Program-made: the position numbers and the translations under genes | In this document: positions 40,052-50,628 of the stretch, one piece after another | How the letters are laid out: every line of letters starts with the position of its first letter | Position numbering within the stretch: position 1 is the stretch's first letter | Assembly (NCBI RefSeq): GCF_009720385.1 | Contig: NZ_WARX01000035.1 | Span: 1 to 64,000 of the forward strand | Direction of reading: 5' to 3' | Origin: Catellatospora vulcania | Lineage (GTDB): Bacteria > Actinomycetota > Actinomycetes > Mycobacteriales > Micromonosporaceae | Length of the DNA: 64,000 nucleotides | Notes under the pieces: model-generated | What the model was told of the DNA's origin: nothing | The model's input: only the letters and a program-made list of their open reading frames with translations | Database searches by the model: none

Positions 40052-43018
40052 TCACACATCGACTCGCGCATCTACAACCACGGCTTTCTCGTCCCGGCCA
40101 TCTCGGACGCTAAATGTGACAGCCCGGCCATCGTTCGGCCGCGCCGACGCAGGCGCAATGACGCTGAAACACATGGTCACCTTGCCGGGGTCGATCGAAT
40201 CGTCGAATGAACCGGGAGGAACGGGGTCAAGAACACTGGGGTACAGCAAAAGTGCTCCTGTCCGTCCCGCACGAAGTTGATTGACCTGCGGGTCGGGACC
40301 CAGCCCGTCGACTCCCGCAATACGCATCGCAGCGTCCACATGCCGACCAGACGCCGATCGAGTGATCAATCTGTCCCCGTTTCTGGTACGGGTGACGACA
40401 ACGAACGGGCCGTGTCCCATAATTCGCCGAGCTCGCTCCATCGCCCCTTGTTTGGGGAACATAATCACCCATTGGGTGACATCGGCCGCGGACAGCGACC
40501 GCAACCAAGCGAAATCCGCCTGAAGCGGATGGCCATCCGGCATACCTGCCTTACTCAGGGCGACCTGTGGAGCTAACGCGGCGATCACCTGTGCGTGAGT
40601 GGCGTGTCCCACAAGCGCATTAAACTTCTTCGTCGGATCCGACGCAAGGAATTGCGCCGATCGAAGGGGAAGGGCCAACAAAGGCTCGAACGCCTGTGTG
40701 TTGGCACGTATCTGGGCTTCCTCCAATGCATATGCCTTTGGCTCACGCAGCAGGCCCGGAGATCTGCGTTCCGCGAGCTGCGCATTGAACATCTTGTTGG
40801 AAGCCGTGGGCTTGAGCTGCGGCAGATGCTGGTAGACGAGCGGTGGAATCTGGCGGGGAGTGACTTGAGGTTTGCCGTCCACATCGAGTTCGGCGTAACG
40901 CTCAAGCTCGAAGCGGAACTGCTCCTCGTCCAAACAAGCCGCTCCGAACTTCTCGTGAAGCTCCGGAGTGGTGTAGAGCCTGACTAAGTCACGGTAGCCC
41001 GGCCTAAACCCGAACCATCGCCCCATCTGGAGCAATGTGTCCGTCTGTGTGGTGTCGCGCCGGTAAAAGGAGATTGTCAGGCCTTCGACCGTAAATCCTC
41101 TGGCGAGCTTGTTGCCGCCGACGAGAATGCGCCAGACACGGCGCTTGTCGAACTGCAGCTCTTCCTGACCTATCACTGCGTCCTTGTCACTGTTGATCAG
41201 GAGGACCGGGTGGGCATCGGGATCTGGTGGATCCATGAGGTCAAGCGCCTCGCCCAGGCATTCAACCAGCTCCTCAAAGGTCGACGGCACCGGAAGGTTG
41301 AGGCCAGAGGCGCGCGAAACGAGCTCGATGTCATCCTCAAACAGACGGCGCAAGCGGGCCAGACTGCCAGGCGAGCGGTAGCCGCCACTCTTCCACAACG
41401 ACTTGATCAGATCGGCTTGGTCCTTCTGAACGGCGGTGCGGCGGTCTTCGTGCACCAGCATCGTGTGGTGCCGATAACGAGGAAGCCCTCGGCGCTCGCG
41501 ATAGATCTTGATCGCCCCGGTGAGGACGTACATGTCGATCGCCTGCCTCAGGTCCTCCTCATTGTCAGCCTCGGGAAGCAGGCGAACATGCTTACGCTCG
41601 TTGGACTCCGCATATGACCGTTCCGTCAGCGGAATGTCGCTGTGTCGGTCAGTGAAGGCGGCAGCGCCCATGTAGTCGGCAGGCGGCGGCAGAGATATCA
41701 GGAAATCTCGGGGAAAGATGTCTTCATCATCGTCAGGGTTCACGAACACGTTGGCGAACGGTGTCGCTGTGTAGCCCACGTATTGAGCCCTTGGAAACAG
41801 GCGCAGCAGGTCACCGATCAGCTTGTTGATGGCCGTCCGATCCTTGCCGTCTTCCGCCAGACGTCGAGGATTGACCGTGTTCACAGACGCTTGGTCAGAT
41901 TCATCATCGATCATCAAAACCGGGACTTCTTCGAGCCCAGTGTGCCGCTTGAGATCCTTCACCAGATCTTTGAGAACGAGAGCATTCTTCTTGACGACCA
42001 ACAGTCGCGTGTCACTGTTGAACAAATTCTGCGGATCATAGAACGGCCGCTGCCGATCTTTTACATCACGCCGATAGTCGAGTGCGGTGAGGTAGTTGCG
42101 CAAGCGCTTGTAGTCCCACCGATAGGTAGTCAACCGGTCGATATCGGGATGACGCACCTGGGCCATGTCGAGCCTCGGCACATCCGACGGACGGCCACCG
42201 TGCTCAATGAACCGATGCGAGATCCAGTCAGGGTCGTCAAAGTAGTCGGCTTCGGTGGGATCGTCGGCAGAGATCTCACGTTCGAGGTTCTCCCTGCCGA
42301 CCAACTCCATATCAAGTCGACGCTGCGTCTGGTTGCGCAGGAGGTTGGTCGTGCCGGCGAGCACGATCACCAGGCGATATCCGGCATCGATGGCCTTCGT
42401 GATAACGCCCGTGAAGTTGGCGGTCTTCCCACTCTGCACATACCCGACCACCAAGCCCTTTGTCGGCGTGGCGCTCGGATCCGTCGGGTCACTAAGGCGT
42501 TCAAGCACCTGCTCTGTCGCGGCGTCAAGAAGGTGCACAGCGCCGTCTGCCCAACCAGGCTTCCGCAGCAAATACTCGCTGTAGTGGTCCCAGTAGAACT
42601 CGTTGCCGACCTGACGCTTCCGGCGGCGCCATGCCTGCTGGCGGCTTGGGTCGTCGATAACAATGATCTCCTTGCCATCGAACATGACGAACATGTCGTC
42701 GAAGACCTTCACCGCGGCATCATCGAGGCTGAGCCTTCGATACACCACCGCTCTGCGCTCGCGGGTGTGAGGTTGAGTACCCTCTGCCCACGAGGCATCT
42801 GGTTGCGCGTCCCACCCGCTCAGGCTAATTTGCAGGTTGCGCTTGAGACGGTCGTCAGACGAAGCCCCATTTAGATGATCGAGCAAGGCCGCGCCGTCGG
42901 ACATGTGCGCCGGATCGTCGCTGAGCGCCGCTGCGGCAACGTGCAGCGGCCGCGGAACGCCCCGCTCTTTCATCCCCTTGAGCGCAGCCAGGTAGTCGGC
43001 TGCGACTGCGTCTGTCAT
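40052..43018 (-). CDS. Z1-domain helicase-like ATPase of a MutL/Z1 restriction-type system
   Basis: 988 residues. Walker A GYVQSGKT (192-199), Walker B-like VLMIDDESDQA and the motif-III-like GYTATPFANVF identify a superfamily-II ATPase, and the Z1 domain lies in the C-terminal half (RILVGGNKLARGFTVEGLTISFYRR, QMGRWFGFRPGY). Z1 proteins are found with MutL-like ATPases in restriction-type loci. The ATG at 43018 overlaps the DUF4420 stop by 4 bp (ATGA), so translation is coupled. Probable DNA-translocating or remodelling motor of the system. Codon use shows more A/T than the core genome. Confidence 0.9.
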   Translation of the reverse strand: MTDAVAADYLAALKGMKERGVPRPLHVAAAALSDDPAHMSDGAALLDHLNGASSDDRLKRNLQISLSGWDAQPDASWAEGTQPHTRERRAVVYRRLSLDDAAVKVFDDMFVMFDGKEIIVIDDPSRQQAWRRRKRQVGNEFYWDHYSEYLLRKPGWADGAVHLLDAATEQVLERLSDPTDPSATPTKGLVVGYVQSGKTANFTGVITKAIDAGYRLVIVLAGTTNLLRNQTQRRLDMELVGRENLEREISADDPTEADYFDDPDWISHRFIEHGGRPSDVPRLDMAQVRHPDIDRLTTYRWDYKRLRNYLTALDYRRDVKDRQRPFYDPQNLFNSDTRLLVVKKNALVLKDLVKDLKRHTGLEEVPVLMIDDESDQASVNTVNPRRLAEDGKDRTAINKLIGDLLRLFPRAQYVGYTATPFANVFVNPDDDEDIFPRDFLISLPPPADYMGAAAFTDRHSDIPLTERSYAESNERKHVRLLPEADNEEDLRQAIDMYVLTGAIKIYRERRGLPRYRHHTMLVHEDRRTAVQKDQADLIKSLWKSGGYRSPGSLARLRRLFEDDIELVSRASGLNLPVPSTFEELVECLGEALDLMDPPDPDAHPVLLINSDKDAVIGQEELQFDKRRVWRILVGGNKLARGFTVEGLTISFYRRDTTQTDTLLQMGRWFGFRPGYRDLVRLYTTPELHEKFGAACLDEEQFRFELERYAELDVDGKPQVTPRQIPPLVYQHLPQLKPTASNKMFNAQLAERRSPGLLREPKAYALEEAQIRANTQAFEPLLALPLRSAQFLASDPTKKFNALVGHATHAQVIAALAPQVALSKAGMPDGHPLQADFAWLRSLSAADVTQWVIMFPKQGAMERARRIMGHGPFVVVTRTRNGDRLITRSASGRHVDAAMRIAGVDGLGPDPQVNQLRAGRTGALLLYPSVLDPVPPGSFDDSIDPGKVTMCFSVIAPASARPNDGRAVTFSVRDGRDEKAVVVDARVDV

Positions 43019-43995
43019 GGCATCTCCAGGGTGATAGCAGCGAGCGCGTCAGCCAGCAGGGTTGGCGGCGTCGACGAGGCCCGCTCGGTTAGATCGATCT
43101 GGTAACGAACCGCCCTGAGGGCCGCAATGTCGAGATGCGCCTGGTGAACGGTGTTCGGGGTGATGCGCGGGAAGTTGTCCGCCACGAGATATGCCGACGG
43201 CACGGTGCGCAGCCGCCACCGACCGGTTGGCCTGGCTCGGCTGTCCCTCCAGCCCGCGGCGGCCAGTCGTCGTCGGTAGCCCTCTCGACCAGAGGCCGGC
43301 AACGCGGCTTCGATCTGGCCAATCAACTCCGGGAGCAGGATGCCGTCGCCACCAGCCTCCGTCAGTTGCAGCGATATTAGCCAAAGGTCACGTGACCCCG
43401 TCGGCATGAGCTGCGTCAATGAGGAAACCCAGTGCGAACGGCGCTCAGCGGTCGACGTCTTGACTTCGACATCAACTCCGGTGACATCGAAGTCGTGCTC
43501 AGCGTATCCAGGACGCCACATCGTCAGAGCAGCGACGGGACCGGCGACCTTCGTCAAACCTTCGAGTATCAACAACTCGCCGATGAGTCCGGCTTCCTGT
43601 TGGGGCGACATTGCGCCGTCCTGCCGGATTAGGTGGCCGAGCACTCTGACGGCGTCGACGATCGCCTCGTCTGTTCGCATCGACTGCAACTGCACCCTGT
43701 CGGCGATGGCGCACAGCAGCGAGTAGCCCAACTGAAACAGGTTCTCAGACGTAATGATCACTTCGACCATCTGTCCCGCCGCACGAGTGACCGATCGAAC
43801 CTTGACTTGATCAAGCCCTAACGCGGTGAACGTCTCGTGAGGACGTGCGGGTATACGCAATCCGATCGATGGCGTAGCTGGGTCGACGAACAGCGTGATA
43901 CGCGGCTCGCCTGGCACGAGGTGCTCGATCGGCACACCGGCTGTGAGGTAATCGGTGAACCCGTCCAGACCCAGATGCCGGCCTGAACCGTTCAC
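43015..43995 (-). CDS. DUF4420 protein, putative PD-(D/E)XK nuclease
   Basis: 326 residues. The nuclease signature is visible: GLIGELLIL with a conserved Glu (residue 140), then EHDFDV followed by VDVEVKTSTA, giving the D-x(n)-ExK core (D168/D170, E177, K179). DUF4420 proteins are described as PD-(D/E)XK family members in MutL/Z1 loci. I start it at the GTG at 43995 because that creates the 4-bp GTGA overlap with the GHKL gene and has GAGG upstream. Probable effector nuclease of the system. Confidence 0.87.
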   Translation of the reverse strand: MNGSGRHLGLDGFTDYLTAGVPIEHLVPGEPRITLFVDPATPSIGLRIPARPHETFTALGLDQVKVRSVTRAAGQMVEVIITSENLFQLGYSLLCAIADRVQLQSMRTDEAIVDAVRVLGHLIRQDGAMSPQQEAGLIGELLILEGLTKVAGPVAALTMWRPGYAEHDFDVTGVDVEVKTSTAERRSHWVSSLTQLMPTGSRDLWLISLQLTEAGGDGILLPELIGQIEAALPASGREGYRRRLAAAGWRDSRARPTGRWRLRTVPSAYLVADNFPRITPNTVHQAHLDIAALRAVRYQIDLTERASSTPPTLLADALAAITLEMP

Positions 43996-45506
43996 GAGCG
44001 TTCCTCGCGGTTGCTCTTCTCCACCTGGGCTGCCGCGGTAAGGATGGCCTGCCACATCTCGAGGTTGTCCTTGTCGCGCGGCCCGAGGTGCGCACCGTGG
44101 AAAATCTGCTCAGCGAGCAGGAACAGTAAAGACTTGATCAGCGGCGCGTCGTTTAGACCACCGCGTCGGCCGCCGTTTACCGCTTTGCGGTATGCCTGGT
44201 TGAGCCAGATAGTGCCCGCATCTCGGTCGATGTCGAAGAAGTCATCGCCGGCGAACTGCATCCAGCGGATCTGGAGCTCATCCTCATGTAGTAGCGGGAG
44301 TTCTTCTTCGATCTCACGGCGAACTTTCGGATCGATGCCACGACCAGGGGGCATGACCTTCGCCCGCGAACGTGTCCGCTGCTGCGAGCGCGTGTAAGCA
44401 TCCTGCGCGGCCTGCAAGTAGTCAGCGATGGCTACGCCGTCGGCAGATCTGGCGGCAGCTACGGCATGGGCGAAGTCGGGACCGACGCCGACCCGCGTCT
44501 TTTCCGCGTTCATGGTGAAAAGACCGGCGACGTCACCGGTGATATCTATGGCGACACGGGCCAGCTGTAACCTGCGATCGGGGGCATGGACACCTTCCCA
44601 TCCTCCGGCGTGTAACAGCCTGCCGTTGCGGTAGAAGTACAGCCCTTGCCACGACTCTGCGCCGCCAGGTAGCCGGAACCGCCGGTCCGTCGAACGGCCG
44701 GGCCAGATGTGACACTGCAAGGTCACCTTGGTGCCATTGATCTCGGCGATCAAGTCTTTAGGCCACTCTGGACGACCCGAGACAGGATAGGCGAAGGGAT
44801 CGATTGGCTGTAGGACGGTACGTGGACCGGCCATGCCGGTGTCCCCGTCCTCAACATCGATCATGACCTTGGCGCGGCCATCGGTCAACAGACGATGAAA
44901 CATCAGTCCTAGGTGGGCTTGCAGCGAGGAGACAGTACGCGAGATGACCTCATCAGCAAGATCGGGATTTGTGGGGAAGGCATGGACGTCATCCCATCTG
45001 ACAACCGTCCCCGTGCCAGCCGACTCTGAAATCCGCCAGTCCCGCCTCAGCTGTCGATCGGCAAACGACTCGTCAACGATGTCGCAGGCGAACGTGTGCC
45101 GGTCGGCAGATTGATGCCACCTACGGCCGACGGCCGACGCGCCTTCAGCCTTGGATAGAACGGTCAGACAACCCGCCTGGCTGAATGACGCCGCTTTCAG
45201 GCCCAGCCCGAAGCGACCGAGGTCTTGATGACCATAATCGCGCCGCCCGCCTAGCGTCATCGCCGTATCGATGATCTCAGGAGACATGCCTTTGCCGTTG
45301 TCGACCACGCAGAGGGCACGTAGAGCCCCCGCAGAGGTGACCAGTCGGACCAGCACTTCAGTCGCGCCTGCGTCGATGGAGTTGTCGACGATATCCGCCA
45401 GCGCCGACTCCAAAGAGTGATTGCGCCCGATTGAATCTAGCGAACGCACGTCTGGCGGAAGTTCAATCACGCCTGCCGTCGGCACCTGATCTGCCCATAC
45501 CGACAT
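43992..45506 (-). CDS. MutL/MORC-like GHKL ATPase
   Basis: 504 residues. The GHKL ATP-binding motifs are complete: ALADIVDNSIDAGA (N-box, N42), VVDNGKGM (G1, D69) and GRFGLGLKAAS (G2). It lacks the MutL dimerisation and endonuclease tail, so it is a MORC/MutL-type ATPase rather than a mismatch-repair protein. In related R-M loci such ATPases act with a Z1 protein and a nuclease. It precedes DUF4420 with a 4-bp overlap. ATG 45506 follows GGGAGTG. Probably senses or clamps DNA; function in this locus is inferred. Confidence 0.9.
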   Translation of the reverse strand: MSVWADQVPTAGVIELPPDVRSLDSIGRNHSLESALADIVDNSIDAGATEVLVRLVTSAGALRALCVVDNGKGMSPEIIDTAMTLGGRRDYGHQDLGRFGLGLKAASFSQAGCLTVLSKAEGASAVGRRWHQSADRHTFACDIVDESFADRQLRRDWRISESAGTGTVVRWDDVHAFPTNPDLADEVISRTVSSLQAHLGLMFHRLLTDGRAKVMIDVEDGDTGMAGPRTVLQPIDPFAYPVSGRPEWPKDLIAEINGTKVTLQCHIWPGRSTDRRFRLPGGAESWQGLYFYRNGRLLHAGGWEGVHAPDRRLQLARVAIDITGDVAGLFTMNAEKTRVGVGPDFAHAVAAARSADGVAIADYLQAAQDAYTRSQQRTRSRAKVMPPGRGIDPKVRREIEEELPLLHEDELQIRWMQFAGDDFFDIDRDAGTIWLNQAYRKAVNGGRRGGLNDAPLIKSLLFLLAEQIFHGAHLGPRDKDNLEMWQAILTAAAQVEKSNREERS

Positions 45507-45873: not shown

Positions 45874-46326
45874 CTAGGCCGCAGGGCGCTTAAAAGCTGA
45901 TCTTTCGCGCACCGTGGACGCGATCCGTGTTGAAGCTTCAGCTGGATCCTCGTGTTCCCACACCCGTATGGTCAGCCATCCGGCATCGGCCAGGAGGGCG
46001 TCTGTGCTCTGATCACGAGTTCGGTTGCGGAGCACTTTCGCTGACCAGTAGTCGCTGTTAGCTGTCGGGGCACGATGGTGGCTCGGGCAGCCGTGCCAGA
46101 AGCAGCCGTCAAGAAACACAGCCACCTTCTGGCGAGGGAAGACCATATCAGCGGTGCGACGGACCGCCGGTATGGGCCGTGCCGCTACTCGATATCGCAG
46201 CCCGAGGGCGTGTGTCGCCCGGCGCAGGGCGAGTTCTGGCTTGGTATCGCGGCTGCGATTGGCACGCATACTGGCGCGAGTCGCCTCACTCGTAGCCCAA
46301 GACGGCTTGCTGCTGGACACACCCAC
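45874..46326 (-). CDS. vsr: Very short patch repair (Vsr) endonuclease
   Basis: 150 residues. Cuts beside T:G mismatches left when 5-methylcytosine deaminates. Hallmarks are present: MRANRSRDTKPELALRRATHALGLRYRV, the catalytic Asp in RTADMVFPRQKVAVFLDG, and CFWHGCPSHH with its zinc/active-site residues. It follows the cytosine methyltransferase by 57 bp, the normal arrangement for a vsr gene. GTG 46326 is the chosen start, though no good ribosome site is seen; the first 12 residues are unconserved. Confidence 0.95.
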   Translation of the reverse strand: MGVSSSKPSWATSEATRASMRANRSRDTKPELALRRATHALGLRYRVAARPIPAVRRTADMVFPRQKVAVFLDGCFWHGCPSHHRAPTANSDYWSAKVLRNRTRDQSTDALLADAGWLTIRVWEHEDPAEASTRIASTVRERSAFKRPAA

Positions 46327-46383: not shown

Positions 46384-47574
46384 TCACTTTTCAGTAGCAT
46401 CCTTGATCATTCGCGCTAGGTAGTGTCGAGCGAGCCATTCGACCACAGGAACGCACACCGCGTCACCAAACCCGCCGACCGCCTGGCTGGTAGGGAGATC
46501 GACGCTCATGGTGTAGTCGCCAGCCCCCATCAGCCGGGCGTACTCCAGCGACGTCATCCAGCGGACTTTGAATTCGCCCGCTCCAGCACGCACCATGGCC
46601 TGCTTCGAGGAGCCGCCGCGGGCTGTGCGTAGACAACCGGCGATGTCGTCGGCGCGGATCTCCCAAGCCGGCTTTCCGTTACGAGTCCGCCGATAGGCAG
46701 TGCGATAGGCGACGGAACTGGCCCGTTTGCGCTGCTCTAGCCGTTTTTGATTAAGATCGGACAACTCGGCGAAAAATTTGGCGGTCCGCGCGTCGTCCCA
46801 CCAACGCTCATCGGAATCGGGCAGATCTTCTGCGACTTCTTCAGTCAGGCCCGAGTCGCGGAGGGCAGGCGGCTTGGGAAGCGCCGCCCGATGCATTTCG
46901 AGGTCCGGGTTGTTGAAGAAGCGGTCGAGCTGCGCTGGTCGAAGCTCGACATTGTCTTCCTGCTTCTCGGCTGGTGGCTTTTGCAAGCCGACGATGAACA
47001 GGCGCGGACGAGACTGCGCGACGAAACGCCGCGCGTCGATCGTCAACACGTCGACCGAATAGCCAAGGTCGTTGAGGCTTTGAATTGCGGCTATCAGGTC
47101 GGCACCGCCGTGGCTGGTGATCAGGCCGGTGACGTTCTCCAGCGCAACGACCGACGGCGCCGCGTCGCCCATTTCCTTGAGGATCCGCGTGAAATGCCAG
47201 AACGTGCCAGAGTGCTTCCCCGCTAGGCCGCTACGGCCACCGGCGAGAGACAGGTCGGTGCAAGGAAAGGAGGCCCAAGCGAGCGAGAGGTCTGCTGGCA
47301 TTGCCTCACCGCGCACGTCCGCGACATCGCCCAGCTTAAACGCCTTGTCCTCGGTGTCCTGAAAGTGGGCTGCGTACATCTGCTTCTTGAACGGCTCGAT
47401 GTCGTTTGCCCAGACCACACGTAGGTCAGCCCGCTCGAGGCCCATCCGTACAAGGCCGATGCCGGCGAAGAATTCGGCGACGGTGGGCTTGAGGCCAGTG
47501 CCGCTCGGGGTCGGGTCCTGCGCTGCCGGTACAGGCGCAGAGCGCTCCTCGACACTTTCGGCAACCAGGCTCAT
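46384..47574 (-). CDS. dcm: DNA (cytosine-5) methyltransferase
   Basis: 396 residues. C5-MTase motifs in order: FAGIG (36-40), the catalytic PCTDLS with C105, ENVTG (146-150), QSRPRLF (187-193), then a target-recognition region around 230-320, and GFGDAVCVPVVEWLA near the end. Recognition sequence cannot be read from the sequence. It leads the minus-strand defence operon; the divergent gene is a GIY-YIG nuclease. ATG 47574 is preceded by a TACTAT box on the same strand. It supplies the self-marking for the locus and the reason for Vsr. Confidence 0.95.
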   Translation of the reverse strand: MSLVAESVEERSAPVPAAQDPTPSGTGLKPTVAEFFAGIGLVRMGLERADLRVVWANDIEPFKKQMYAAHFQDTEDKAFKLGDVADVRGEAMPADLSLAWASFPCTDLSLAGGRSGLAGKHSGTFWHFTRILKEMGDAAPSVVALENVTGLITSHGGADLIAAIQSLNDLGYSVDVLTIDARRFVAQSRPRLFIVGLQKPPAEKQEDNVELRPAQLDRFFNNPDLEMHRAALPKPPALRDSGLTEEVAEDLPDSDERWWDDARTAKFFAELSDLNQKRLEQRKRASSVAYRTAYRRTRNGKPAWEIRADDIAGCLRTARGGSSKQAMVRAGAGEFKVRWMTSLEYARLMGAGDYTMSVDLPTSQAVGGFGDAVCVPVVEWLARHYLARMIKDATEK

Positions 47575-47799: not shown

Positions 47800-48519
47800 G
47801 TGCGGACTCTGCCCGGCATCGACCTGGCTACCACCCAACTGTCCCGAGAAGTGCAATTAATCCGGGACGCCATCTCCAGCGCCCTTCGGCACCCCGACCC
47901 CCAGCGCCCTGAGCAGACGATCGGCAACGCGAAGGCCGGCGTCTACGCGTTCTATGACTACGACGGCGAGCCCATCTATGTCGGCCAGACCGCCGAGGGC
48001 TTCGGCGTGCGCCTTGGTCGTCACCTGACCGGGCAGCGGTCGGATGCGGTAGCCAAGTACGTCCTGGACCCCTTCGAGGTTTATCAGGTTGCGCTCTGGT
48101 CCCTCCCGCATATCGGGGACATGCCCGCTAACCAGCGCAAAGCCGCCCTCGATCCGTATGAGTACACGGTGTACCAGAGGCTCCTCGCCGACAGCACGTT
48201 CAAAGCCGTGCTGAACGAGGGCGAGATCCTGCCCTGCCAGCCCGTAGACGTTTTCGAACCGCTTGTTGTCGCGATCGTGCCCGACGAAATCTTCAGAGAG
48301 CGCAGCCACCCCGACGTTCGCATCGCGAGACGTGCGCAGACAGTCGCGCTCCTGGCGAAGAACATCAGTGAGCGGAAGGTCTCCAAGGGGCTGCGACGCA
48401 CGCTATTGACACAGACGCGTCGGCTCGAACATCTCGCCCGCCGGCGGTTCGAGTCGCTGGGCGGCACCATCGAGTTCGAGCAGGCGGAGGGCATCGTTCC
48501 CGAGTCCGACGACTTGTAG
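47800..48519 (+). CDS. GIY-YIG nuclease-domain protein
   Basis: 239 residues. GIY-YIG core: GVYAFYDYDGEPIYVGQT, followed by RLGRHLTGQRSDA with the conserved Arg, and a Glu in PYEYTVYQRLL. The remainder is helical and unrecognised. GTG 47800 has GGAGG at 47791-47795. It is divergent from dcm across 225 bp and may be the cutting enzyme paired with the methyltransferase, or an independent nuclease. Type II GIY-YIG restriction enzymes (Eco29kI-like) are known, but I cannot assign this to them. Confidence 0.82.
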   Translation: MRTLPGIDLATTQLSREVQLIRDAISSALRHPDPQRPEQTIGNAKAGVYAFYDYDGEPIYVGQTAEGFGVRLGRHLTGQRSDAVAKYVLDPFEVYQVALWSLPHIGDMPANQRKAALDPYEYTVYQRLLADSTFKAVLNEGEILPCQPVDVFEPLVVAIVPDEIFRERSHPDVRIARRAQTVALLAKNISERKVSKGLRRTLLTQTRRLEHLARRRFESLGGTIEFEQAEGIVPESDDL

Positions 48520-48861: not shown

Positions 48862-50628
48862 TCACGCGTCGTGGCCGCATAGCTGTCGGTGATAGCTGAT
48901 GTGTTCAAGGCTGATCTCGTGGCTTGGGTGGTCGCGGAGCCTGCCGATCTCGGACTGGTCGGCGGCAGCCCGCACCATGCCGTCACGGTCGATGTAGATA
49001 GTGAACGTGTCGAACAGCACGTGGTGGTTGGGGCACAGGCACAGCAGGTTCGACACGTGATCAGGGCCATGGTGCGGAGCTCCCAGGCCGCGGATGTGCG
49101 CCGCCTCGCTGTAGCCGCCGCGACCGGTCTGTAGGCGCAGCCCACAAACCTGGCAGTGATGGTCGTACAGCTTCTTCACGTCCTTGGCAACCTGCGAGTC
49201 ACGAATGAGCTGGTACGTAGTGACAGCCCGCCGGGCTGTCACTCCCGCGGATCCTTCCGCCAACGTCGCCTGGAGATCAAAGGAGGATGCCCCCGCAGCC
49301 GAGTCGTAACCTTCTAGGCCGACATCGACTAAGAGGCGGGCGTGGTTGACGTCAGGCAGGTGACGAGTCAGCAATGTGCGCACCACACGCCCACGGACCG
49401 ATGGGTCTTCGAGCAGCATCGCCGTTTGCACGGTGAGGCCGGCGACCGGATTCACTCGATCGAGCCGGGCTGCCTGGGCAGGATCGGCGACCGGAGCGCC
49501 CATTTCAGCGACTTCCCACAGCGTGCCGCTGCGTAGGTTCCAGAACGGGTGTTGCGGACTGACCTGCGACTCTGGTTTGCCGTGTTCCCGCAGGAGTGGG
49601 GCGACAGCAGCCTGAAAGTCCCGCCACCCGACCATGCGGGGCTGCGCGGCAGCAAGTCGGCCGATCGCCCACAACAAGGTCAGCGGCTGGTAGCTGGTGG
49701 AATTGCCCGCGGTCTCCTGCACGTGCAGCCGCTCGATCGCGTCGAAAAGGCCTGCCGGATTCAGGCGCTCCTGAAGTGTGCGCTCCAGCAGAGAACCCAT
49801 CGAAGGTTCTCGAACACCTATGCCGACCTCTGACGGCGCAACGTGACGCCGCAGCCGCGGAATCGCGCCTCTGCCTTCCCTTACCCAGGTCTTCCAAGCT
49901 GTGGGGGCATGCCGTTCGGTCAGTTCGATCTGAAGTGAGGCGTCACGGCGGTCGTCGATCCACCGCATGTCGAGGGCGTCACCGGTGTCGGCGAGGTCGA
50001 GGACGACGAGGTCAAGCGCAAGGTTGGGGAATTTGACGCCAGTTTTGGCATCTTCCTGCGTGACCTGTTCGAGCCGCTCGATCACCGCGACGCCGCAGAA
50101 CGAGATGTGACCCTTGACGACGGTTTCTCCGCCGCGGTTCACGGTTTCCGAGCAGTACAGAAGCAGCGGTGGGGCTAGTCTGCGCTCTTCAACGGTCGTG
50201 GCCTGGTGCATGACCCACGCCTCAAGCAGCGCACGGTTGCCTACGGTGGCACCAGGCATGCCGCCCGTCGTCGATTTATGGTCGCCGTAGTAGCGGACAT
50301 GGCCACGCTCGAGGTTGAACTCGTCGTGCCATGGATTTGTCTCGTGCCCCGCCTTCCATGGGCTCGACCGGATACCTATGACCGGCCGCCGGGCCTGTCC
50401 GCCGGCCACGACAGTCGCAGCCGCGTTGATGCCCTTCTCGAGCATTAACTTCCGCTGGTCGGCATTGCCGGTGGGGGTGGTTAGGAAGTGGTAGTTAGGG
50501 TACCCGTCCAGCTCAGGATCAGTTTGGCTGGCGCCCTGGGCGTAGCGAAGCACCTGTTGCAGTCGTACCAGTCGGGCACTCACCCCTGAATGGTTTCGAG
50601 GCGAGCCCCACGACGGTATCCACCACAC
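48862..50628 (-). CDS. Probable modification-dependent restriction endonuclease (AspBHI-like N-terminus, C-terminal HNH)
   Basis: About 588 residues. The N-terminal half (GIRSSPWKAGHETNPWHDEF, GHVRYYGDHK, PLLLYCSETVNRGG) resembles the modified-base-binding N-terminus of AspBHI-type enzymes; I am fairly but not fully sure of this family. The C-terminal HNH domain is clear: CQVCGLRLQTGRGGYSEAAHIRGLG, and LLCLCPNHHVLFDTFTIYID, the form found in SRA-HNH enzymes such as ScoMcrA. Together this suggests a type IV enzyme that reads methylated DNA. Start uncertain: the frame extends far upstream, and I use the GTG at 50628 just before WWIPSWGSP. Convergent with the GIY-YIG gene. Confidence 0.75.
   Translation of the reverse strand: MWWIPSWGSPRNHSGVSARLVRLQQVLRYAQGASQTDPELDGYPNYHFLTTPTGNADQRKLMLEKGINAAATVVAGGQARRPVIGIRSSPWKAGHETNPWHDEFNLERGHVRYYGDHKSTTGGMPGATVGNRALLEAWVMHQATTVEERRLAPPLLLYCSETVNRGGETVVKGHISFCGVAVIERLEQVTQEDAKTGVKFPNLALDLVVLDLADTGDALDMRWIDDRRDASLQIELTERHAPTAWKTWVREGRGAIPRLRRHVAPSEVGIGVREPSMGSLLERTLQERLNPAGLFDAIERLHVQETAGNSTSYQPLTLLWAIGRLAAAQPRMVGWRDFQAAVAPLLREHGKPESQVSPQHPFWNLRSGTLWEVAEMGAPVADPAQAARLDRVNPVAGLTVQTAMLLEDPSVRGRVVRTLLTRHLPDVNHARLLVDVGLEGYDSAAGASSFDLQATLAEGSAGVTARRAVTTYQLIRDSQVAKDVKKLYDHHCQVCGLRLQTGRGGYSEAAHIRGLGAPHHGPDHVSNLLCLCPNHHVLFDTFTIYIDRDGMVRAAADQSEIGRLRDHPSHEISLEHISYHRQLCGHDA

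Follow-up and report, generated by a model that had tools for sequence, protein, structure and literature searches.

The window, by which we mean the whole 64,000-nucleotide stretch of the Catellatospora vulcania contig, carries on its minus strand a gene of 588 codons (48862..50628), recognised from its open frame, Pfam families and sequence matches to PDB entries. Judging by these matches, the product appears to be a modification-dependent nuclease in three parts, namely an SRA domain, a sulfur-binding domain (SBD) and an HNH nuclease domain. The codon-position G+C bias is typical of a coding actinomycete gene; the frame is open as far as 51063, and its start codon is uncertain, with GTG 50628 or GTG 50583 as usable candidates. 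Two Pfam families score above their gathering cut-offs in the protein, RE_AspBHI_N (PF18062, E = 2.2e-26) and HNH_2 (PF13391, E = 7e-12), while the NCBIfam model PT-DNA_restrict (NF045808) covers residues 296–555 with E = 2.8e-29 and stays below its cut-off (102.2 against 180 bits). An AlphaFold model, built on an alignment of four sequences only, has a mean pLDDT of 33.6.

The sequence-only reading had proposed a modified-cytosine reader joined to a nuclease, about 1.3 kb from a C5-methyltransferase. The matches to PF18062, PF13391 and, in the neighbour, PF00145 agree with this, and the measured spacing is 1.29 kb.

Domains of the SRA-SBD-HNH protein

The SRA domain (49843..50577, minus strand; residues about 18–262) is a predicted 5mC reader of the MspJI type, assigned by phmmer. 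In a search against solved structures, residues 18–287 match MspJI (PDB 4f0p) with E = 8.1e-95. AspBHI had been suggested earlier as the structural model for residues 1–300; that assignment gives way to MspJI, which is far closer, and a reader of the AspBHI type is rejected, LpnPI (4rzl) reaching only E = 0.48. In MspJI the flipped base is read by W101, D103, S90, Y114, F115, G116 and D117, K173 is a candidate for recognition of the purine at +3, with Q33 and E65 close to the bases (PMC4499157). The 588-aa protein has the same residue at S89 (S90 in MspJI), W100 (W101), D102 (D103), Y113 (Y114), G115 (G116) and D116 (D117), and likewise at E64 (E65), Q31 (Q33) and K172 (K173). The sole change among these listed contact and site residues is F115 of MspJI, replaced by Y114, a tyrosine as in LpnPI and AspBHI. 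The site of AspBHI is YSmCNS; since the match is of the MspJI type and the contact and site residues are kept, mCNNR is the site expected of this SRA, not YSmCNS. The likeness to MspJI (4f0p, 4r28), of the type IIM MspJI family, thus lies in an SRA with all listed base-contact residues except F115. At the C-terminus the two part, MspJI having an Mrr-like PD-(D/E)XK nuclease and the 588-aa protein SBD-HNH.

The SBD (49294..49761, minus strand; residues about 290–445), again assigned by phmmer, is a predicted phosphorothioate reader. It was overlooked in the sequence-only reading, whose modified-cytosine reader stands. Residues 299–438 match the SBD of SprMcrA (7ccd, E = 1.5e-13), and residues 311–439 match ScoMcrA (5zmm, E = 4.9e-11). 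The sulfur pocket has Y313-Q314-P315 as in SprMcrA, and H360-P361 occupies the place of Y164/P165 in ScoMcrA, P361 matching the sulfur-pocket position P165 (PMC6224610). SprMcrA contacts the bases through an HGD motif (PMC7470945) that has no counterpart in this SBD, so that the DNA context of the latter may differ or its binding may be weak. SprMcrA therefore shares the Y-Q-P pocket with the 588-aa protein and differs from it in having the HGD motif.

The HNH nuclease domain (48883..49281, minus strand; residues about 450–582) was identified by a phmmer match of residues 448–582 to the HNH domain of TagI (6ghs, E = 3e-32). H511, N527, H536 and D540 correspond to H229, N245, H254 and D258, the catalytic set of TagI (PMC6212794). 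With all four residues shared, the HNH active site is intact, and the sulfur pocket of the SBD is present, cleavage of phosphorothioate DNA being a prediction. TagI is an SRA-HNH enzyme whose SRA is of another class and which has no SBD, unlike the 588-aa protein. ScoMcrA likewise combines SBD, SRA and HNH in one chain and reads both 5mC/5hmC and phosphorothioate, but it is arranged as head-SBD-SRA-HNH, against SRA-SBD-HNH here, and has an SRA of a class other than the MspJI type. SprMcrA and EcoWI have SBD then HNH, as in the 588-aa protein, and both are without an SRA.

The protein is a rare fusion. Genes with an MspJI-type SRA occur in 18 of 355 genomes of the host's family, and in most of them the SRA heads a PD-(D/E)XK nuclease. 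An SRA followed by an SBD was seen in these 355 genomes only in the window protein and in one other genome of the same genus (G084), whose homologue is 58% identical over residues 3–447. In that homologue (L035:9769-11304) the HNH domain is missing; the frame runs past the SBD into unrelated sequence and then ends. SBD-HNH proteins without an SRA exist too, one of them in the same genus (57% identity over residues 292–588). With two gene types at hand in the genus, the fusion appears to stem from an exchange of domains between them. The SBD-HNH patterns had no match in viral contigs, and plasmids gave an HNH match only.

Neighbouring methyltransferase and its cassette

The C5-cytosine methyltransferase (46384..47574, minus strand; PF00145, E = 3e-43) has intact motifs IV (FPC), VI (ENV) and VIII (QSRPR); a search of the 8.8 Mb genome found no second PF00145 gene. 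Next to it lies the gene of a Vsr mismatch endonuclease (45874..46326, minus strand; TIGR00632, E = 6.9e-37, over the cut-off). A GIY-YIG nuclease gene (47800..48519, plus strand; PF01541, E = 3e-4, just under the cut-off), on which the earlier reading was silent, lies between the methyltransferase and the SRA-SBD-HNH gene. The methyltransferase family is present in 26 of the 355 genomes, 22 of which also have the GIY-YIG family, and methyltransferase, GIY-YIG and Vsr genes are grouped at seven of eight further loci that were read. From this conservation the GIY-YIG protein is probably the type II endonuclease that goes with the methyltransferase, and the methyltransferase in turn resembles a type II enzyme paired with a nuclease and not Dcm. 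Dcm, named in the earlier reading, can be set aside, the methyltransferase belonging to a separate type II family in a conserved GIY-YIG/Vsr cassette. With such a GIY-YIG partner, the SRA protein would not be needed as the restriction half, as fits a type IV enzyme, which has no cognate methyltransferase. In a survey of palindrome avoidance, read for hints of the methyltransferase site over 400 kb from each of three genomes of the genus, GRCGYC was slightly more avoided in the two carriers, with between-genome noise equally large.

Beyond Vsr, also on the minus strand, follow a GHKL (paraMORC/MzaB-like) ATPase (43992..45506; PF13589, E = 1.8e-24; MzaB model E = 5.8e-39, below cut-off), a DUF4420 PD-(D/E)XK protein resembling MzaD (43015..44055; PF14390, E = 6.4e-34) and a Z1-domain helicase-like protein resembling MzaC (40052..43018; PF10593, E = 2.7e-54; MzaC model E = 1.4e-81, below cut-off). 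The products of 40052-45506 are relatives of the Mza system and not members of it, none of the NCBIfam equivalog cut-offs being reached (133.7 of 850 bits for MzaB, 274.7 of 1500 for MzaC and 52.5 of 420 for MzaD). The gene content of the cassette is that of the MORC/paraMORC-helicase-novel RE-Dcm-Vsr operons, as these are presented in the available part of their description (Iyer 2008, PMC2292703); that part makes no mention of an SRA or MspJI-type member.

Probable restriction of foreign DNA and the possible self-cutting conflict

In our preferred explanation, which we regard as fairly probable, the 588-aa protein restricts foreign DNA carrying 5mC/5hmC or phosphorothioate and is compatible with its neighbour through sequence context or control. 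The SRA would flip and read 5mC or 5hmC, with mCNNR as the expected context, the SBD would read phosphorothioate DNA, and the HNH domain would cut near either mark in incoming DNA. The resident methyltransferase would most likely write 5mC in contexts without a purine at +3, non-overlap being assumed here; alternatively, the nuclease may be held off by control or low activity, sequence avoidance being the simpler reading. In favour of restriction, each of the three domains independently matches a modification-dependent enzyme of solved structure, family models agree, the MspJI pocket and site residues and the HNH catalytic residues are conserved, and a second genome of the genus retains the SRA-SBD part. 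Neither DndC nor DndD turned up in the host genome; as far as these two genes tell, and leaving the SspABCD phosphorothioation genes aside, phosphorothioate would be a foreign mark. Domain make-up, the conserved reader and catalytic residues, the single C5-methyltransferase and the negative DndC/DndD search are direct observations; the specificity, the cleavage and the way of avoiding self-cutting we infer. On the other side, the only other SRA-SBD fusion found is without HNH, and MspJI-type genes recur near methyltransferase cassettes, as described below, which suggests more than an independent solitary nuclease.

The proposed self-cutting conflict is a real question; the methyltransferase site may or may not overlap with mCNNR. 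Mutual exclusion of MspJI-type SRA proteins and C5-methyltransferases across genomes was considered and rejected, as carriers are enriched: at least one C5-methyltransferase is encoded in 17 of the 18 SRA carriers and in 224 of the 337 other genomes of the family (Fisher p = 0.017). The window genome alone has both an MspJI-type SRA and this particular methyltransferase family (18 and 26 of 355 genomes, about 1.3 expected by these numbers), a count that speaks for neither association nor avoidance. For the addiction once proposed for the pair, no evidence was found. Because the sole C5-methyltransferase and one MspJI-type reader lie 1.3 kb apart, the self-cutting conflict is directly testable in this strain, and an m5C map would tell avoidance by sequence from avoidance by control.

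Were the two specificities to overlap, the nuclease could be silent in its host, that is, not expressed, inhibited or inactive, and the pair a defence-island coincidence in decay. The related G084 fusion without HNH is in keeping with this, as is the reported position of the MspJI gene itself, directly beside a cytosine methyltransferase gene that is considered inactive (PMC3874153). Yet the reader and catalytic residues of the 588-aa protein are intact, its frame holds no stop, and the motifs of the methyltransferase are intact as well; we consider a silent nuclease very unlikely.

The same alternative draws on loci elsewhere. An NgoMIV-family endonuclease gene (PF09015; L113:3199-4038 and L146:5821-6786) lies beside a methyltransferase gene in genomes G117 and G509, both with an MspJI-type gene. 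In G509 this MspJI-type gene adjoins the endonuclease and methyltransferase, and GmCCGGC, if written there, would be an mCNNR site. The Vsr substrate GTCGGC/GCCGGC of gonococcal M.NgoAIV (PMC6116569) implies GmCCGGC, whereas the finding of GCCGGC with FspEI in Aeromonas hydrophila (PMC8112702) would imply GCmCGGC, which is not an mCNNR site. A real conflict in G509 would thus depend on GmCCGGC versus GCmCGGC, if GCCGGC is the target there at all.

Linkage of MspJI-type genes to methyltransferase cassettes

More surprising than the protein itself is how often such genes lie near methyltransferase cassettes. The surroundings of 23 other MspJI-type SRA loci were read mostly about 8–9 kb to each side, with somewhat uneven flank lengths, and at ten of these loci a C5-methyltransferase, Vsr, Z1 or DUF4420 gene is found no more than 10 kb away. 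The linked loci come from three families of the order, the host's own (G281, G283, G194, G103, G320, G117 and G323), a second (G417 and G602) and a third (G509). By comparison, none of 24 control loci, taken around SBD-HNH or HNH nuclease genes of the same family with the same seeds, was linked (Fisher p = 2e-4, in a test that ignores relatedness and in which part of the C5 seeds were drawn from these same neighbours). Nearly all methyltransferases read keep motifs IV, VI and VIII. Seen from the other side, an SRA gene lies within 10 kb of five of 21 DUF4420 loci in 151 genomes, window included.

In two linked genomes, G281 and G194, the SRA stands alone: the frames are open over 259 and 277 aa, and nothing nearby matches PD-(D/E)XK (L099:7869-8645 and L101:9251-10081, near C5-methyltransferase, Z1 and DUF4420 genes). 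Both keep the base-pocket residues and K173, and Q33 is arginine in both. The two proteins are 83% identical, with dN 0.088, dS 0.42 and a ratio of about 0.21, which indicates purifying selection, so that they look like maintained genes and not debris. In G194, the SRA gene lies downstream of the ATPase, DUF4420 and Z1 genes on the same strand.

That the linkage recurs, and that an SRA without a nuclease is maintained, suggests a function for the pairing. The SRA might be a working part of the methyltransferase/Vsr/Z1/DUF4420/GHKL cassette that reads the cassette's own methyl mark, and might license, block or position the Z1-DUF4420-ATPase machine, the nuclease tail (PD-(D/E)XK, SBD-HNH or none) being exchangeable. 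The linkage counts at both the SRA and the DUF4420 loci, the stand-alone SRA in two cassettes, directly after ATPase-DUF4420-Z1 in one of them, and the reported position of the MspJI gene beside a cytosine methyltransferase gene (PMC3874153) all point that way. Nevertheless, most DUF4420 loci and 13 of the 23 SRA loci are unlinked, the opposite-strand GIY-YIG gene separates the SRA gene from the ATPase operon in the window, and more than one kind of methyltransferase is found at the linked loci. Defence genes also cluster in general, for other reasons. For the window protein, we hold such a role to be unlikely, if somewhat less so than a silent nuclease.

The broader proposal, that MspJI-type SRA proteins are dedicated readers of these cassettes with an exchangeable nuclease tail, is doubtful, though we put it slightly ahead of that specific role. 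If true, it would describe a bacterial module that combines a methyl writer, mismatch repair and a reader of the methyl mark, and of which the window would hold the SBD-HNH version.

A second cassette type was also observed (L100:3123-6834, likewise in L102, L099, L148 and L149), with three proteins between DUF4420 and Vsr: a 650-aa PDC-M33A-like protein, a 310-aa protein without any family, and a PDC-M33C-like DUF6339 protein.
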